Origin: an uncultured Spirochaetaceae bacterium
Lineage (GTDB): Bacteria > Spirochaetota > Spirochaetia > Sphaerochaetales > Sphaerochaetaceae
DNA length: 41,589 bases
Direction of reading: 5' to 3'
Assembly: GCA_944392965.1 (NCBI GenBank)
Contig: CALXYM010000018.1
Location: 1-41,589, forward strand
The notes beneath the pieces were generated by a model. That model worked only from the letters and a program-made list of their open reading frames with translations, was not told the DNA's origin and did not search any database. Shown here in pieces: positions 9,365-23,244 of this stretch (position 1 is its first letter; each line of letters opens with the position of its first letter). The position numbers and the translations under genes were made by a program.

Positions 9365-10254
9365 TGGAGATACTACACTATCCTGTACTTCATGACAGCG
9401 TACTGGAATATCTTGCACTGAGTACGGATGAAGATGCTGTAATGATCGACTGCACGACGGGGGAGGGCGGACATAGCAACCTTTTCCTCTCCCGCTTTCC
9501 CCGTCTGTGCGTCATCGGCATAGACCGTGACGAGGAGATTCAGAAGAAGGCGATAGAGAGGCTTTCTGTCTATCCTGGGAGATTCAAAGCCGTGAATGCA
9601 TGGTTTGATGATTATCTCAGGAGTGCTGAGAGTGAAAGTGCCGACAGGATTCTTTTCGATCTGGGAATTTCAATTTTCCACTATGAGGAGAGTCAGAGGG
9701 GCTTCTCATTCCGAAAGGATGAACCTTTGGACATGAGACTTGATAAGAATGCCTCCCTCTCTGCTGCCGATATCGTGAACAGCTATAGTGAGGAGGAGCT
9801 TGCCTCCATCATTTACCGCTATGGTGAGGAACGATATTCCAGGCGTATTGCAAGAGCCTTTGTCGAGCATAGGGAGAAAAGCCCGATCAGAACGAGTAAG
9901 GAAGCGGAGGACATCATCTTCCACGCGGTTCCAAAGGAATACCGTTACGGAAGGATAAGTCCTGCTACAAGAACGTTCCAGGCTTTGAGAATAGAGGTCA
10001 ACAAGGAGCTTGACAGGATTAAACCTTCGCTTCTTGAGGCCATAAGGGTACTTAAACGTGGTGGAAGAATAGGTGTTATAACCTTTCACAGCCTTGAGGA
10101 TAGGATCGTAAAGTGGACGTTCAAGGATGAGGCGGAAAAGGAGAATCCTGAAATAAGGATCATCACGAAGAAACCTGTTGTTCCCAGCGAAGCAGAGGAG
10201 AGAGTGAACGCGCCTTCCAGAAGCGCGAAACTTAGAGTGGTGGAAAAGCTATGA
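9361..10254 (+). CDS. rsmH: 16S rRNA (cytosine1402-N4)-methyltransferase
   Basis: RsmH (MraW) methylates N4 of C1402 in 16S rRNA using S-adenosylmethionine. The 297-residue protein has the SAM-binding motif MIDCTTGEGGHS (about 28-39), the IDRD segment, FDLGIS, and the conserved blocks RGFSFRKDEPLDMRLD, RTFQALRIEVNKEL and ITFHSLEDRIVK. It overlaps mraZ and the FtsL-like gene by 4 nt each (ATGA junctions), so translation is coupled. Confidence 0.97.
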   Translation: MMEILHYPVLHDSVLEYLALSTDEDAVMIDCTTGEGGHSNLFLSRFPRLCVIGIDRDEEIQKKAIERLSVYPGRFKAVNAWFDDYLRSAESESADRILFDLGISIFHYEESQRGFSFRKDEPLDMRLDKNASLSAADIVNSYSEEELASIIYRYGEERYSRRIARAFVEHREKSPIRTSKEAEDIIFHAVPKEYRYGRISPATRTFQALRIEVNKELDRIKPSLLEAIRVLKRGGRIGVITFHSLEDRIVKWTFKDEAEKENPEIRIITKKPVVPSEAEERVNAPSRSAKLRVVEKL

Positions 10255-10529
10255 GAGAGAGCACATTTAGATTCAGTATAAAGGAGAAGGCAATTGTAAT
10301 ACTTGCTTTCTTTTTCATCTTCATTTCTCTTTTCGTTCCTCTCTGGCAGATTGGAGTCAATCACAGTCTGGAGATGAAGATTAGAAATGATAAGGAGGCT
10401 CTTGCGGAACTCAGCGCTGAGGAGCGGCGTATCCGCACGAGCATGGCAGAGAGCGAGGCCGAGATGGAGAACAGGGTGGTCCTGTCTTCCGTTAACGAGC
10501 TTTCAATGCGGCTCTCAACGATAAATTAG
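10251..10529 (+). CDS. ftsL: FtsL-like division protein
   Basis: This 92-residue bitopic membrane protein has one transmembrane helix at about residues 15-34 and a short coiled-coil-prone region rich in E, A and L. That layout matches FtsL, a scaffold of the FtsQLB complex. Sequence conservation in FtsL is poor, so the call rests on architecture and on the position directly after rsmH, where ftsL normally lies. ftsI and murE would usually follow, but the next gene here is ftsW. Confidence 0.75.
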   Translation: MRESTFRFSIKEKAIVILAFFFIFISLFVPLWQIGVNHSLEMKIRNDKEALAELSAEERRIRTSMAESEAEMENRVVLSSVNELSMRLSTIN

Positions 10530-10582: not shown

Positions 10583-11755
10583 ATGAGAGAAGATTACGGA
10601 AAGGATTATGATGATTTCACATTGACGGATTATTCTGACAAGGAGCTTTCAGGATCCCTGAGCCCCTTCACTTTCCTTTGCGTCGTAGCGGTTCTCACTC
10701 TCTTTGGTCTGATCATGGCATACAGTGCAAGCTATGATGCAGCTATCAGGGAAGGCCTGTCCCATTATCACTATCTTCTGGAGATGGTCACATATGGTTT
10801 TTTTGCGATAATAACGGGGACCGTCCTCTTTTTCATGCCACGTGCGAAGATTGAGAAGATATTCTATTTCACACTCCCTTTGTCCTTTCTCCTTCTTCTG
10901 ATAAACGTCATCAATGTCTATTTTGAAAACTCGGTTCAGATCCTTTCAGGATTTCCTGATCTGAATGGTTCTGATGCTCTGATTTTTTCCTCCGTCCTCC
11001 TTGTCGCATACCTCATGCCCCGTATGAGGGAGAAGGAGATGAGGGGTTATGTTTATCTTGCATTCTTCATCATGAGCCTTGTGGTAACATTCTTTATGAT
11101 GACTGCTGTCAGCTTCTGCTATGCCATCCTTTTCTTCCTGACGATGGCAGTTGCCCTTCATGCGTCAAAAGTGGAGAGGAAATACATCGTATTCTATATA
11201 CTTTTCAATGTAACTTTAATGGTTTTCCTCCTTCTGAGTTCTTCGGATTATCTTGGTTCATTCTTCTCCCGTCTCATGCCTTACTATTGGGAGAGTGAGG
11301 ATGCGCTGAACGCGTCCAACTGTCTTTCCGCTGTTGCCGAAGGGGGGATATTCGGTAAGGGAATAGGGTCATCGTATTACAAGCTGGGGCTTATTGATGG
11401 AATCGAGGATGAGTATATTTTTGCAGCCATCGCAGAGGAGATAGGTTTCCTCGGCGTTCTCATGATTCTTTTGTTCTTTCTCCTGTTTTTGTTTCTTGGA
11501 ATAAGGTGTGCTCATAGAAGCAGGAATACTGGAGATGACTATATAAATGTCGTAAGCCTATCTTTTTCCTTCATGATAGTTTTCAAGACGGTTTTGAGCA
11601 TGCTTTCCGCCGTCTCGATAATTCCCTCAGCAGGGATATCTATGCCATTTTTCAGCGCTGATGGATTCAGTTATTTCTTAACGATAATAGAATGTGCAAT
11701 GCTCTATCGTTTCATGCACATAACAGGAAGGGGGTATGAGAAAGTCCGTGATTAG
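10583..11755 (+). CDS. ftsW: FtsW/RodA/SpoVE-family (SEDS) division protein
   Basis: SEDS proteins polymerise glycan strands from lipid II and work with a partner transpeptidase. The 390-residue protein has about nine or ten membrane helices. The family segment at residues ~255-290 reads FGKGIGSSYYKLGL, then EDEYIFAAIAEEIGFLGVL, which matches the SEDS pattern of a catalytic-loop acidic residue followed by the IAEELG helix. It overlaps the next gene by 20 nt. In most bacteria ftsI and mur genes lie between ftsL and ftsW. Here there is only a 53-nt gap. FtsW is favoured over RodA by its place before ftsQ-ftsA-ftsZ. Confidence 0.9.
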   Translation: MREDYGKDYDDFTLTDYSDKELSGSLSPFTFLCVVAVLTLFGLIMAYSASYDAAIREGLSHYHYLLEMVTYGFFAIITGTVLFFMPRAKIEKIFYFTLPLSFLLLLINVINVYFENSVQILSGFPDLNGSDALIFSSVLLVAYLMPRMREKEMRGYVYLAFFIMSLVVTFFMMTAVSFCYAILFFLTMAVALHASKVERKYIVFYILFNVTLMVFLLLSSSDYLGSFFSRLMPYYWESEDALNASNCLSAVAEGGIFGKGIGSSYYKLGLIDGIEDEYIFAAIAEEIGFLGVLMILLFFLLFLFLGIRCAHRSRNTGDDYINVVSLSFSFMIVFKTVLSMLSAVSIIPSAGISMPFFSADGFSYFLTIIECAMLYRFMHITGRGYEKVRD

Positions 11756-12455
11756 CCTGTCGATATTACTTGCTCTTCCCCTCGTATTTTATAGCCTTTC
11801 CTTTATTGATGTGTTCAAAGTAAGGAGGCTTGGATTTGACCCTTTCTCCTCATCCATTGCGAGCATAGAGAGATTTACGAATATGGCGTGGGGTGCGAAT
11901 ATTCTCTCTCCCCGTTTCCGTTCATTAAAACGGAACATTGAAGCTCTGGGGTATGTGAGGAATGTTGACCTCATATCCTCTTCATTTCTGGAATACGATG
12001 TTGTTATCGAATATGAGGATGGACTCGTTCTTACAGATGGAGATCTCTTCTTCTTTTATTCGGAAAGAGGGATCTTTCAGCTTGATTCAAGGGATGTATA
12101 TCCACTCTTATCGAGATATATTCCTTTTCTTATGACTCCTGAGATGTTGAACTATCTAGTGAATTTTCCGATTGATAGAGAGCATTCATCTTTGCTAGCA
12201 TTGTTGATGGATATTTCACGAGGAAATGGGTATAATGAAAACTTAATTGGAAGGGCTGAATATTCACCCTCCTCAGGAAATGGTTTCGGAGAGCTCAGAC
12301 TCTATTCAAGGGATGGAGATTTCATCCTCATTGTCAGTGGTGCTGTCGACCTTTCCTTTTTATCTTCTTCCCTATCTGAGATAGGAGGACATGATTTCGA
12401 TATTCCAGTGGTATTCGAAATTAGGAATAATACTTTGATTAGGCGGTTGAGTTAA
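11736..12455 (+). CDS. ftsQ: FtsQ/DivIB-like division protein
   Basis: This 239-residue protein has an N-terminal membrane helix (about residues 5-24), then a short strand FKVRRLGF that resembles the start of a POTRA domain, and an extracytoplasmic region of mixed alpha/beta character. Sequence similarity to FtsQ is not obvious to me. The call relies on topology, size and position between ftsW and ftsA, which is the normal place of ftsQ. The start ATG 11736 has a strong GGAAGGGGG site and lies within the ftsW end. Confidence 0.62.
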   Translation: MRKSVISLSILLALPLVFYSLSFIDVFKVRRLGFDPFSSSIASIERFTNMAWGANILSPRFRSLKRNIEALGYVRNVDLISSSFLEYDVVIEYEDGLVLTDGDLFFFYSERGIFQLDSRDVYPLLSRYIPFLMTPEMLNYLVNFPIDREHSSLLALLMDISRGNGYNENLIGRAEYSPSSGNGFGELRLYSRDGDFILIVSGAVDLSFLSSSLSEIGGHDFDIPVVFEIRNNTLIRRLS

Positions 12456-12456
12456 G

Positions 12457-13692
12457 GTGGCTACGGATAAGACGTTGTTAGGACTAGACATAGGTACAAG
12501 TTCAATCAGGGCTGTGATCGCATCTGTCAACAGGGATGGACAGTTGATGATTGAGGCTATTGCAGAGCGTCCGGGAGAAGGCGTCAAGGCCGGCAGTATC
12601 GTCAACATAGAGCAGACGTTGAAAGCCATCAACAGCGTAATCAGTGACGCAGAGCTCCAGAGTGGAACGGAAGTCTCCTCTGCAATTCTGGGAATAGGAG
12701 GAGATCATATAGAAGGGATCTCTAGTAACGGGGCTGTTGGAATTACAAGTAAGGATCAGGAGATAAAGAGTGATGATATCCGCAAGTCGATTGAGATCGC
12801 GCGTGCACGCGACATTCCACAGGATGCGGAGATCCTGCATACGCTCGTACAGGATTTCCAGGTCGATTCCCGTTCTGGAATAAAGGATCCGATAGACATG
12901 CTCGGACATCGACTTGAGACGAGAGTTCTTCTTGTCCTCGGTTCCTCTTCCATCTGTCAGAACCAGAGAAAGTGCGTTCAGAAAGCAGGCCTTCAGGTCC
13001 AGCGTATGGTACTCCAACCTCTTGCAGACAGCGAGGTCGTCCTCACTAATGAGGAGAAGGAGATGGGGGCTATCGTAATAAACATCGGTGCAGGAACCAC
13101 GAACATGATCTGTTATCTGCAGGGATCTCCCGTGTATGTCGGCGGCATCGGCTTTGGAGGAGACAATGTCACGGGAGACATAGCATATATGTTACAGCTT
13201 CCTCGTGTGGCTGCAGAGTCGATAAAAATTACGGATGGTTCCTGTCATACTCCGAGTGTCAATCCAGATGAGATGATAATCACTCCTGCGGTTGGAGGAA
13301 AGCCTAGTTTCCGCTTTCCAAAAAGGGAGCTTGCAAAGGTGATAGAGCCGAGGATGGCAGAGATATTCTCTCTTTTACAAGGAGAGCTTGAAAAACACGA
13401 CATCAGTGGCTCTTTCGGTGCGGGTATCGTTCTCGTTGGAGGGGGAAGCCTTTTAAGTGGAGCTACTGAGCTTGCTGCGGAGATATTCCGTCTTCCTGCA
13501 CGTCTTGGTTTTCCTCAGGCGATTAATGGACTGGACAGACAGTATATCGATCCTAAATATTCTACGGTCTTGGGACTGGTGAAGATAGAAGCTAAAAGAT
13601 ATAGGGACAGCGGAGGCCATAATTCCGCAAGAGGTAAGGACAAGGGGGGATTCTCCTCTAAAATGAAAGGACTTTTCTCAAAGCTGTTTTAG
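12457..13692 (+). CDS. ftsA: Cell division protein FtsA
   Basis: FtsA is an actin-like ATPase that tethers FtsZ to the membrane. The 411-residue protein starts with the phosphate-1 motif [16 protein letters not shown] (8-23). It has the inserted 1C domain, the second phosphate loop [11 protein letters not shown], and the adenosine motif [12 protein letters not shown]. It ends with the amphipathic membrane-targeting helix [12 protein letters not shown]. The start is GTG 12457, one base after the ftsQ stop, with AGGCGG upstream. Confidence 0.97.
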
Positions 13693-13703
13693 GAGTGTTG
13701 GAT

Positions 13704-14996
13704 ATGAGTTTTGATATTTTTGACATCGAGGATACTACTACAGGCGAGCAGGCCGCTCCTACAATCATCAAGGTCGTCGGGGTCGGTGGAGGTGGCGGTA
13801 ATGCCATAAACCGCATGATCGCGGCAGGACTAAAGAAAGTACAGTTCATCGCACTCAACACCGATGTTCAGGCTCTTCAGCGCTCTAATGCTCAGACGAG
13901 GATCGCAATCGGTAAGGAGCTTACCGGAGGTCTTGGAGCCGGTGGCCAGCCCGAAGTGGGAGAGAAGGCCGCCATTGAGAGCAAGGATGAGATAAGAGAA
14001 GCTCTTGAAAACGCTGATATGGTTTTCATCACCGCAGGAATGGGTGGAGGAACGGGAACAGGTGCGGCGGCGGTCGTTGCAGAGGTTGCACGTAATTGCG
14101 GGGCTCTTACTGTGGCTGTCGTCACTCTTCCTTTCGCGTTTGAGGGAAAGAAGAAGCTCGCTCTTGCTCAGCAGGGTATAGAGAGGCTGAGAAAGCAGGT
14201 TGATACGCTGATCCTCATTCCTAATCAGCACCTGCTTAACATCGTGGATAATAACACTCCCATAAAGCAGGCCTTCATAATGGCAGACAGTGCTCTCTTA
14301 CAGTCTGTACAGGGAATTTCTGATCTCATCACTGAGCCGGGAGAGATAAACATCGACTTTGCAGATGTGAAGACGGTTATGAAGGGCAAGGGGGATGCTC
14401 TTATTGGCCTGGGATATGCCGAGGGTGCTAACAGGGCCATTGAGGCAGCCCGCTGTGCTGTGAGCAATCCTCTTTTGGAGAATGCTTCCATTGAAGGCGC
14501 GAAGAGCGTCCTCGTAAATCTTGCAGGAGGAGATAACCTTACCATCCAGGAATATCAGGATGTCGTTGAGGTCATTACGGAAAACTGTGCAGAGGATGTT
14601 CTTGTCATTGCAGGTCAGTCTTACAATCCCGCACTTGGAGACAGAATCCGTGTGACCGTCGTCGCCACCGGTTTTGAAAAGAGACCTGAGGCATCCACCC
14701 TTGAGAGGGAGGCTGAGACTTATCGTAACCGCTTTGCAGAAAGAAGCAGGGAGGAGAGCATAAGAGAGGCTCAGGAGAAGGAGAGAGAACGAGAGAAGGA
14801 AGCAGAAAGGGAAAGAGAGCGTGAGAGAGAACGGGAGAAGGAGAAGCATGACAGTCTCAACGCCGATCCATCCACGATCACAGTCAACAGATGGCAGGAT
14901 CTTCAGAAACAGCTTGGAAAGAGAAGTGGAAATCCCAATGACTACTCGATACCCGCCATACTGCGTTATTCCCGTGACGAAGATGACAAGAATTAA
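13704..14996 (+). CDS. ftsZ: Cell division GTPase FtsZ
   Basis: FtsZ polymerises into the Z ring. The 430-residue protein has [13 protein letters not shown] near the N-terminus, the tubulin signature GGGTGTGAA, and the synergy-loop region with [15 protein letters not shown]. The globular domain is followed by a linker extremely rich in Glu and Arg (about residues 335-380). The conserved tail [14 protein letters not shown] binds FtsA. I chose ATG 13704 because AGGAG (13691-13695) lies 8 nt upstream. GTG 13695 overlaps that site. Confidence 0.97.
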
Positions 14997-20137: not shown

Positions 20138-20149
20138 TAGGTGGTATTT

Positions 20150-21232
20150 ATGAAATATGTGACCATAACTGCTAACAGCTACGAGGAAGCGCTTGCAAAA
20201 GCGGAGCAGGACTATGGTAAGAATATAAGAATCCATTCACGGAGGGATTACTCCGTGGGTGGAGGTCTTTTCTCCAGGAAGAAGAGCAAATGCGATCTCA
20301 CCATCTACCTTCCGGAGGGGTATGATAAGAGGGGTGCTCGTACAGACGAGGAGTCGATCATGGAATTTGAGAAGGAGGCCCGTACTCCTGATCCTGATTC
20401 CCTGAGTGACAAGGAACGGCTTAACACTGAGATCTATAGAGGTTCTTTGGAGAAGATGACGAAGGCTGAGAAGATCTTGAAAGCCAACGACATCTCCGAG
20501 CCTTTATGGTCTGTGCTGCTGAAGGATTTCTCTTTAGAACAGAAGGTTGAGCTTGAGATCGCCAATAGGATAATAGATACAACAGCCCTTAAAAGCGAGA
20601 TAGATAACAAGTATCAGGTACTGCTTGGTCCCACGGGTTCAGGAAAGACCACGACGTGTGCAAAACTCGCCATAAACTATAAGAGGCGAGGGCAGGATGT
20701 GTTCATTATAAGTCTTGACAGCTATCGTGTCGGATCTTTCTATCAGATACAGAAACTTACGGATGCACTGAATATTCCACTTAGAACTGTCAGTGATGAG
20801 GTTGAGTTCAAGACAGCACTGAAGGAAGCTCAGGATTATGGTATCGTGCTTATTGATACTATGGGACTCAGTAAAAGTGATGATGAGCTGAATTTAAAAC
20901 TGAAGGGAATGCTTAATAATCTGAACAGGGCTAATTCCGAGTTCATATTCATAGCTTCTGCTACAACGAAGATCGATGATCTTGAAAGCCTATATGAGAT
21001 TTACTGTACGTATCTCAAGATAGACAGCATAATCGCGAGCAAGGCCGATGAATGTTCTACGATAGGAACTCTTCTTTCCTTCTCTTTCAGGCACAGGCTG
21101 CCTTTTTCCTATATAACGAACGGACAGAGGGTGCCTGAGGATATTGAGAAGGCTGAGAGCCTTGAGGTGCTAAGGTATCTCAATTCTCTCGATCTTGATT
21201 TGAAGAGGTTTTCTCATCAGGTAGCTGATTAG
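20150..21232 (+). CDS. flhF: FlhF-like SRP-family GTPase
   Basis: FlhF is an SRP-type GTPase that sets flagellar position and number. This 360-residue protein has the FlhF B domain (KYVTITANSYEEALAKAEQD, then NIRIHSRRD), an N domain, and a G domain with P-loop GPTGSGKTTTCAKLA. Later motifs are SLDSYRVGSFYQIQ, a G3 motif reading DTMGLS instead of DTAGR, and TKIDDLESL. It ends with a SYITNGQRVPEDI motif typical of FlhF. No flagellar gene is present in the window. ATG 20150 has AGGTGG upstream, and GTG 20141 is the poorer start. The gene sits 12 nt after hslU, where motile spirochaetes may carry flagellar operons. Confidence 0.85.
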   Translation: MKYVTITANSYEEALAKAEQDYGKNIRIHSRRDYSVGGGLFSRKKSKCDLTIYLPEGYDKRGARTDEESIMEFEKEARTPDPDSLSDKERLNTEIYRGSLEKMTKAEKILKANDISEPLWSVLLKDFSLEQKVELEIANRIIDTTALKSEIDNKYQVLLGPTGSGKTTTCAKLAINYKRRGQDVFIISLDSYRVGSFYQIQKLTDALNIPLRTVSDEVEFKTALKEAQDYGIVLIDTMGLSKSDDELNLKLKGMLNNLNRANSEFIFIASATTKIDDLESLYEIYCTYLKIDSIIASKADECSTIGTLLSFSFRHRLPFSYITNGQRVPEDIEKAESLEVLRYLNSLDLDLKRFSHQVAD

Positions 21233-22191
21233 AGCGAGAGCATGGCCTCGAATTCCCTGAGAGAAGAGTCCATCATCTCCTTGTCACTAGAGGATGCGAC
21301 GAGTGCGAATCCTGAACGGTAGTGTATGTTCACATGACGACCATTATTCTCCTTCTTCGTATCCTCAGGGGTAGGGATGTTTTTTTCCCTCTCCGTCTTG
21401 AGTATCGTGTAGGGCCGACCTGACAGGGCTGTTTCTATTGCATCGAAATCAATATCCTCCTCCTTTCCACTGCTGACAGAGAGCGCGTATATCTCACCTG
21501 TGGAATAATCAAGGAGTGAGAGCATGAGATAGTCCTCATCTGACTCTGTGACATAACTGGATACTATGTGATCGGCTATGTATTCCATTCTCTGACTTAA
21601 AGAGAGGGTAATATCTTTTCCTGTTGAGAGCGCTTCTGTGAGTGTGAAAGGTGGATCGAGTATCTCATCGTAGACGCCTTCTGCTGCAAACTCGGATTTC
21701 TCTCCTTCCCGTCCTATCACGATACGCCCATGTTCGGAGAGTGGATAAATCCTCTCTCTCTTCTCTTCAAGGCTGACAAGATGGTCCAGCCTCTCTCTCT
21801 GCAGCATCTGCTTGAAATCCTCCTGCTCAGAGAGCATGATTGAGGAAGTGAGTTCCAACTTTCCACCAAGCCTTATTGCGTTTTCAAGCGTGAGGGCACT
21901 CATCGATGTATAAGGTGCGATGATTGAGGAAAGGCGGCTTACTTCACTTACCCTCTCAGAATTAATCTTGATGACATAGCTGGTTCTGTCCATCGCAAGG
22001 ATATTTCCATTCCTGTCATATATGGAACCTCTGAAATATTCACTTTGGATCTCAGGATCCCTATAGTTCGTGTTTATCACGCCCTCTGAGATATAAAGGG
22101 ATAAGAGCCTAATTATCAATATCATTGAAAGTATCAGCATGCTAAGGAAGATAACAAGTCCTTCCTTATTCGCTTTCCTGTTGTTTGCCAT
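21229..22191 (-). CDS. FtsI-like PBP without the transpeptidase domain
   Basis: This 320-residue protein has an N-terminal membrane helix (about 12-33) followed by the class B PBP dimerisation (pedestal) motif FRGSIYDRNGNILAMDRTSY (53-72). Later it has GKDITLSLSQRMEYIADHIV and LLDYSTGEIYALSVSSG, which match the linker of FtsI/PBP2 (DV.LTID..LQ, then TGEILAMAS). Class B PBPs then have about 300 residues with SxxK, SxN and KTG. These are absent here. The lone SSDK near the C-terminus lacks the expected context. The gene is intact and not fused to neighbours, so it may be a stable scaffold for FtsW. It is transcribed divergently from the LysM-LytM gene and converges with flhF, overlapping by 4 nt. 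Confidence 0.78.
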   Translation of the reverse strand: MANNRKANKEGLVIFLSMLILSMILIIRLLSLYISEGVINTNYRDPEIQSEYFRGSIYDRNGNILAMDRTSYVIKINSERVSEVSRLSSIIAPYTSMSALTLENAIRLGGKLELTSSIMLSEQEDFKQMLQRERLDHLVSLEEKRERIYPLSEHGRIVIGREGEKSEFAAEGVYDEILDPPFTLTEALSTGKDITLSLSQRMEYIADHIVSSYVTESDEDYLMLSLLDYSTGEIYALSVSSGKEEDIDFDAIETALSGRPYTILKTEREKNIPTPEDTKKENNGRHVNIHYRSGFALVASSSDKEMMDSSLREFEAMLSL

Positions 22192-22290: not shown

Positions 22291-23244
22291 ATGAGTCGTA
22301 ATGATTATGATGACATGGGCCCCGGGTTCTCCCGCAGGGGAGGAGGGGATAACAAGAAGACGTATATCATCTCATTCATGTGTATTTTGATAATTCTCAT
22401 AGCAATACTGCTTTATATCGTATTCCGTCCCTCCGAAGAGGAAGCTGTGGAGGGGGATAGCACTCCGATGACAATCTCTTTGGATATCCCCGAGGTCGAA
22501 CAGGTCCCTGTCGAGAGGAGTTCGATTCCCGTAGTTGAAGAGGAGAAGGACGAAGACGGCTTCTTCACATCCTATACTGTCACATCCACAGATACACTCA
22601 GTTCCATAGCATCCTCTTTTGGCATTTCCCCCACGACGATCAGCCAGGTGAACAACATCCAGGATCAGAGTGGAATAAAAGAAGGCATCTCCCTTACCAT
22701 ACCATCTCTTGATGGAATCCTGTATACGGTAGAAGAGGGGGATACAATCTCATCCTTGATGTCTCGTTACATGGTAAGTGTCAATGAATCAGAGCTTATT
22801 GCTATAAACGGAATAGAAGGGGATCTGAAAGAGGGAGATGTGATATTCATTCCTATTGTCATGGAGAGCAGTGATTCCTCTTTCCTTAGACCTTCTGATG
22901 GTAGCTTAGTATACCGTTTCAATGAGGTATATAATGGCATGCCGTTAAATGGTGTTGCCTTTTCTCAGGAAGCGGGGAGTGCCGTATATGCGATAGCCGA
23001 TGGTTTTGTCATGGATGCAGGAAGCAGCAGCCAGTTTGGACGCTTTGTTACCATCGTCCATCAGGACGGGTTCAAAAGCAGTTACTATTGCCTTGAGGTG
23101 GTGAATGTAAGGGTAGGACAGAGAGTCAAGGCAGGGGATGTCATTGCGACTGTCGGCTCATCCAACCGTTATTTTGAAACTCCGACCCTTTACTTTACAC
23201 TCGAGCAGGGGTCATTAACTCTGGATCCCATGATGTTCTTCTAG
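22291..23244 (+). CDS. LysM protein with degenerate M23 (LytM) domain
   Basis: This 317-residue envelope protein has a membrane anchor at about residues 25-46 and an acidic linker. Two LysM repeats follow (SYTVTSTDTLSSIASSFGIS at about 91-110, and YTVEEGDTISSLMSRYMVS near 147), then a C-terminal LytM/M23 domain. In active M23 peptidases zinc is held by HxxxD and HxH. Here the first site is replaced by NGMPLNGVAF, and the HLHFE motif reads TLYFTLEQ. The catalytic His of the YxHL motif is Cys (SSYYCLEV). The domain is therefore very probably inactive, like EnvC or NlpD, which activate amidases. It is divergent from the truncated FtsI-like gene. Confidence 0.85.
   Translation: MSRNDYDDMGPGFSRRGGGDNKKTYIISFMCILIILIAILLYIVFRPSEEEAVEGDSTPMTISLDIPEVEQVPVERSSIPVVEEEKDEDGFFTSYTVTSTDTLSSIASSFGISPTTISQVNNIQDQSGIKEGISLTIPSLDGILYTVEEGDTISSLMSRYMVSVNESELIAINGIEGDLKEGDVIFIPIVMESSDSSFLRPSDGSLVYRFNEVYNGMPLNGVAFSQEAGSAVYAIADGFVMDAGSSSQFGRFVTIVHQDGFKSSYYCLEVVNVRVGQRVKAGDVIATVGSSNRYFETPTLYFTLEQGSLTLDPMMFF

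Follow-up and report, generated by a model that had tools for sequence, protein, structure and literature searches.

The window, that is, the whole stretch of 41,589 nucleotides analysed here from an uncultured Spirochaetaceae bacterium, encodes a protein of 320 amino acids (21229..22191, (-), ATG start), henceforth pseudo-FtsI, with the features of a class B PBP shell without the catalytic core. An N-terminal membrane helix (residues 9-36; 22084..22167, (-)) is predicted by the AlphaFold2 model, and the pedestal domain PBP_dimer (residues 54-168; 21688..22032, (-); E 3.6e-9), with its RGSIYDRNG motif, was the only Pfam match, with none to a transpeptidase. The transpeptidase domain opens with helix alpha1 followed by beta1 and beta2 (residues 198-241; 21469..21600, (-)), as placed by hhalign to full-length FtsI and by the model, and the C-terminal strands and helix (residues 278-320; 21232..21360, (-)) are proposed, from the model and its superposition, to be a remnant of the transpeptidase end (beta4, beta5 and alpha11). 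In the alignment, R54, G55, I57, R147, E171 and G191 are invariant within the genus, most of them also family-wide. The SxxK, SxN and KTG motifs, present in 16-17 of the 17 aligned wall-positive family members, are absent from the window protein, from all 27 aligned congeneric homologues and from all 12 homologues of clade B, the second wall-less clade (genera g28, g32, g38, g42 and g45). The segment YTILK (within P260-YTIL-K265) was considered as a TxxK vestige of SxxK and set aside; apart from the window protein, only three of its near relatives showed it. The first-pass annotation had described an intact 320-residue FtsI-like frame with membrane helix and pedestal and without the three motifs, and reading frame, Pfam and alignment agree on this.

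In wall-less and wall-positive genomes alike, an flhF-like gene is followed by ftsI, which faces an NlpD-like gene, and this shared order places the pseudo-FtsI gene at the ftsI locus itself. The FlhF-like protein, an SRP-type GTPase (20141-21232, (+)), is encoded beside ftsI throughout most of the family, whose cultured members, to our knowledge, lack flagella. The NlpD-like neighbour (22291-23244, (+)), a LysM and M23 protein in which the HxxxD and HxH metal residues are missing, is kept in wall-less genomes; its degeneracy was rejected as a sign of wall loss, the protein being equally degenerate in wall-positive relatives.

Upstream lies an mraZ-rsmH-ftsL-ftsW-ftsQ-ftsA-ftsZ cluster; its ftsW, ftsL and ftsQ genes, earlier described as lying beside pseudo-FtsI, do share its conserved neighbourhood but at a distance of about 10 kb. 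The cluster encodes an FtsL-like protein adjoining ftsW (10251..10529, (+); FtsL_2 at E 0.07 only), pseudo-FtsW (10583..11755, (+)), which has the SEDS fold (PF01098, E 6e-35) and has lost active-site residues, an FtsQ-like protein assigned by position, with no Pfam match (11736..12455, (+)), FtsA (12457..13692, (+); PF14450, E 1.7e-32) and FtsZ (13695..14996, (+); PF00091, E 1.1e-52).

The transpeptidase domain of pseudo-FtsI

Using a genus profile, hhalign aligned pseudo-FtsI residues 1-241 with residues 1-244 of full-length FtsI (E 1e-43), a stretch that reaches past alpha1, beta1 and beta2 of the transpeptidase fold, and the starts of FtsI-type transpeptidase domains were weak PDB matches of residues 176-266. 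The protein therefore continues into the transpeptidase domain instead of ending ahead of it, as had been proposed, since homology runs through these elements to residue 241; simple C-terminal truncation was rejected on this ground and because clade B retains the end of the domain. In profile comparisons the clade B tails matched the strands and helix that close the transpeptidase domain (E 2e-9 and 1e-8), with a mean of 10.5 bits vs -4.6 +/- 0.9 for shuffled tails, and removal of the middle, catalytic part in this clade is statistically clear from these comparisons. In the window genus no significant similarity was found between the last ~75 residues and the end of the transpeptidase domain (E 0.1-0.6; -3.8 bits vs -4.3 +/- 0.6 for shuffles), the tail being too diverged for a match at this level.

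For the window protein we turned to the predicted structure. Residues 198-320 of the model superposed on the transpeptidase domain of E. coli PBP3 (residues 250-559) over 114 residues at 2.9 A, and similarly on PBP2x; the match thus takes in either end of that domain and passes over its middle. The model comprises a helix (200-216), two strands (222-228 and 234-239) and a second helix (249-257), followed by three strands (278-282, 285-292 and 295-301) and a final helix (304-319), with pLDDT of 64-77 for the greater part of the 40 C-terminal residues and below 50 at 259-277. Its input alignment consisted of N-terminal homologues, and AlphaFold may have filled in a memorised PBP fold; when full-length distant homologues were used, the tail was misaligned and residues 244-303 stayed under pLDDT 50. 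The model thus argues with moderate strength that the helical catalytic half was excised and that the two ends of the alpha/beta half were rejoined into a small domain. Compared with class B PBPs (PF03717 plus PF00905) such as FtsI/PBP3, pseudo-FtsI shares the membrane helix, the RGxIxDRNG pedestal, R147/E171/G191, the start of the transpeptidase fold, the locus and descent from ftsI, but it lacks PF00905, the three catalytic motifs and the central catalytic half, and has 320 residues vs ~555 in wall-positive relatives. What had been read as truncation is better described as internal excision, and the entire peptidoglycan pathway was lost along with it, at least twice.

The same part of the model (residues 197-320) also superposed on Roadblock/LC7 domains (MglB, MP1-p14) over 97-109 residues with Z about 10, at modest pLDDT, and the remnant might accordingly have been recruited outside division, for example as a periplasmic Roadblock/LC7-like regulatory or binding module. 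We regard such recruitment as decidedly improbable: the transpeptidase alpha/beta half superposes equally well, so the likeness may be generic, and neighbourhood and pedestal both point to division.

Peptidoglycan pathway and probable wall loss across the family

The family census covered 139 genomes from 22 genera. In 13 of the 22 genera, closed genomes of 3.2-3.6 Mb included, a single full-length FtsI-type protein carrying PF00905 was found, and the lack of PBP transpeptidases, earlier noted as reported for cultured Sphaerochaeta, does not extend to the family. No PF00905 was detected in the window genome, while ten control genomes gave matches, nor was it found in the rest of the window genus or in g27, g28, g32, g38, g42, g45 and g46. 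MraY (bar one sub-threshold match) and MurC-F (bar one MurD-like exception) were likewise not found in the window genus and seven other wall-less genera; searches of the window genome for MraY, GT51 and YkuD were all negative. The MurD-like protein (L216:1168-2454, (+)) occurs in a single genome (G144) of the otherwise wall-less g42. Wall-positive genera have about five Mur_ligase matches and wall-less genera one or two; the matches read in the window genus were FolC, to which the window genome adds a PgsB-like ligase. This PgsB-like poly-gamma-glutamate synthase (L207:877-1980, (-)) scored 217 bits, narrowly missing the cut-off of 222.7, and possibly serves a capsule in a wall-less cell. Among the MurJ matches listed, strong ones (E below 1e-58) came only from wall-positive genera; MurJ was set aside as a wall marker, blurred as it is by weak matches from related transporters.

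Class A PBP glycosyltransferases were not found anywhere in the family and nearly all genomes have a single SEDS protein, which leaves FtsW as the sole recognised glycan polymerase in wall-positive genera. LD-transpeptidases were found in 2/139 genomes. One 3.9 Mb genome of genus g43 (G145, rpoBC at L184; 86% complete) gave three Mur ligase matches and no FtsI-like, SEDS or transpeptidase match, and may be incomplete.

The window genome is a 38-contig assembly, 95% complete, so one may ask whether the gene is split, or whether an assembly or binning artefact caused a catalytic domain or pathway lying elsewhere to be missed. Such an artefact is hardly credible, as the genomes with PF00905 or MraY include no congeneric one, the frames are open, and within contigs ftsL directly adjoins ftsW, without the Mur ligase and mraY that separate the two genes in wall-positive relatives.

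In an RpoB-RpoC tree the window genus was sister to wall-positive g26, and g27/g28/g38/g42/g45 were sister to wall-positive g31/g34; the placement of g46 was not settled. The AU test rejected a single wall-less clade (p 1e-5), as well as a joining of the window genus with the g27/g28/g38/g42/g45 group (p 1e-6), which implies at least two independent losses. Two g26 genomes, G063 and G065, encode FtsI proteins of 474-480 residues without SxxK, SxN or KTG (L139:13948-15369, (-), and L140:1702-3141, (+)) and keep MraY, Mur ligases and a normal-scoring FtsW; G065 also holds one of the only two LD-transpeptidases in the family. It is plausible that their FtsI represents an intermediate state.

Sphaerochaeta and Bullifex, spherical bacteria probably of the same family-level group, have been reported without PBP1a, PBP2 or PBPC (PMC7738495). 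They keep murA-G, mraY and murJ, and Bullifex has muropeptides (PMC7738495), whereas the wall-less genera described here do not keep the pathway; the wall-positive relatives analysed here keep a full-length FtsI. Loss of peptidoglycan pathway genes also characterises PG-negative Rickettsiales and symbionts (the PGn class, PMC8406291), but in the PGn closed genomes surveyed aPBP, bPBP and SEDS were lost together (PMC8406291), while here bPBP and SEDS shells remain under selection. We found no report of this combination, wall pathway lost and both shells kept, in the open-licence papers searched.

FtsW and selection on the pair

The FtsW of wall-less genomes looks catalytically dead. Its GxxRW motif was deleted in 31/31 wall-less sequences, the QPSExxK motif is broken in wall-less genomes, and the equivalents of W138, Q147, R243, R246 and G380 (E. 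coli numbering), each essential in E. coli (PMC8765783), are missing in most wall-less sequences, so that the active-site set of a SEDS polymerase (R137, W138, Q147, R243, R246, D297 and G380) is not retained. The FtsI transmembrane helix meets FtsW TM8-TM9, and the FtsI pedestal and linker meet ECL4 (PMC7614612, PMC8078798). Of the residues invariant in 19 wall-positive FtsW proteins, most in the catalytic loops were lost. Those kept in the window genus (g1) and clade B, respectively, amounted to 10% and 0% in ECL2 and to 9% and 26% in the first half of ECL4, but to 91% and 86% in its second half; the values for TM8 were 90% and 93%, with TM9 less well kept (36% and 57%). These proteins thus resemble shells in which the FtsI-contacting parts appear preferentially preserved. 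As read from the aligned sequences, catalytic residues have been lost and FtsW contact regions retained; we infer the absence of a wall, the formation of an FtsI-FtsW complex and its function. In E. coli, the FtsW active-site mutants tested still localised to midcell and bound and recruited FtsI (PMC8765783).

A pedestal that still activates a working FtsW, yielding uncrosslinked glycan strands, would fit the conservation of the pedestal and of the part of ECL4 that it contacts, and the D297 equivalent is D in 8/21 and E in 5/21 congeneric FtsW sequences. This is nevertheless very unlikely given the erosion of the essential residues, the missing MraY and MurC-F, and MurJ-family matches that are distant only. 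Of the scaffold or SEDS-activating role suggested in the first-pass annotation, the scaffold part stands, with the enzyme lost; SEDS activation is unsupported because FtsW looks dead and the lipid II pathway is missing.

The family census recovered one pseudo-FtsI homologue per genome in 44/48 congeneric genomes (33 of the first 35 other genomes of the genus). Lengths in the 27 aligned congeneric homologues ranged from 281 to 336 residues, and an FtsI-type match was present in 75/75 high-quality family genomes. For pseudo-FtsI, dN/dS was about 0.1 (0.08-0.15 over pairs without saturated dS), with the N and C parts similarly constrained, compared with about 0.03 for FtsW, 0.007-0.025 for FtsZ and 0.30-0.35 for the FtsQ-like protein. 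The expected conservation of length and purifying selection were both borne out, and a search for a separate full-length FtsI, or for random truncations with high dN/dS, found neither.

Functionless ftsI and ftsW genes, decaying slowly on their way out, would account for the eroded catalytic core, for an ftsI that evolves faster than ftsW or ftsZ and is less constrained than the latter, for the four congeneric genomes without a match (78-89% complete) and for the single one with an in-frame stop. We nonetheless consider slow decay unlikely: besides the low dN/dS of both genes and the match in every high-quality genome, frames remain intact between species down to 20-30% identity, and the same pair was retained after independent losses. 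Pseudo-FtsI is, on its substitution pattern, kept under purifying selection.

Proposed role of the FtsW-FtsI pair

It appears, then, that the cell wall was lost at least twice in this spirochete family and that FtsI and FtsW were each time kept as dead, trimmed shells, which suggests a structural job in division beyond wall chemistry. Pseudo-FtsI is probably an FtsI orthologue that, together with pseudo-FtsW, forms a non-catalytic scaffold of the FtsZ divisome in bacteria without peptidoglycan. In a lineage that no longer makes peptidoglycan, with the catalytic parts of both enzymes lost, the two proteins would still pair, TM8 of FtsW meeting the membrane helix of FtsI and ECL4 meeting the pedestal. 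With FtsL, FtsQ, FtsA and FtsZ they would constitute a transmembrane hub without catalytic activity, by which the constriction signal is relayed or held between the Z ring and the periplasm during wall-less division. The FtsW-FtsI-FtsQLB core known from cryo-EM (PMC7614612) has its counterpart here in FtsL- and FtsQ-like, FtsW, FtsI, FtsA and FtsZ genes and in the preferentially kept FtsW contact regions, but here both synthases appear dead, the substrate pathway is absent and no FtsB was identified. A stronger version, a dead but necessary FtsW-FtsI hub in several independently wall-less lineages whose transpeptidase domain has been reduced to a Roadblock-like interaction module, is a fair possibility and is put forward tentatively.

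If the hub is dead and yet necessary, the FtsWI complex would have a wall-independent role in constriction. An essential wall makes it difficult to test whether this complex does more in constriction than make wall. Here evolution seems to have performed that experiment on at least two occasions, losing the pathway and the chemistry and keeping the FtsW-FtsI pair. These lineages would offer natural separation-of-function forms of both proteins, as well as a minimal FtsZ divisome, free of a wall, for reconstitution. They also correct the view of a family simply lacking transpeptidases: most genera have exactly one, and others a dead one.
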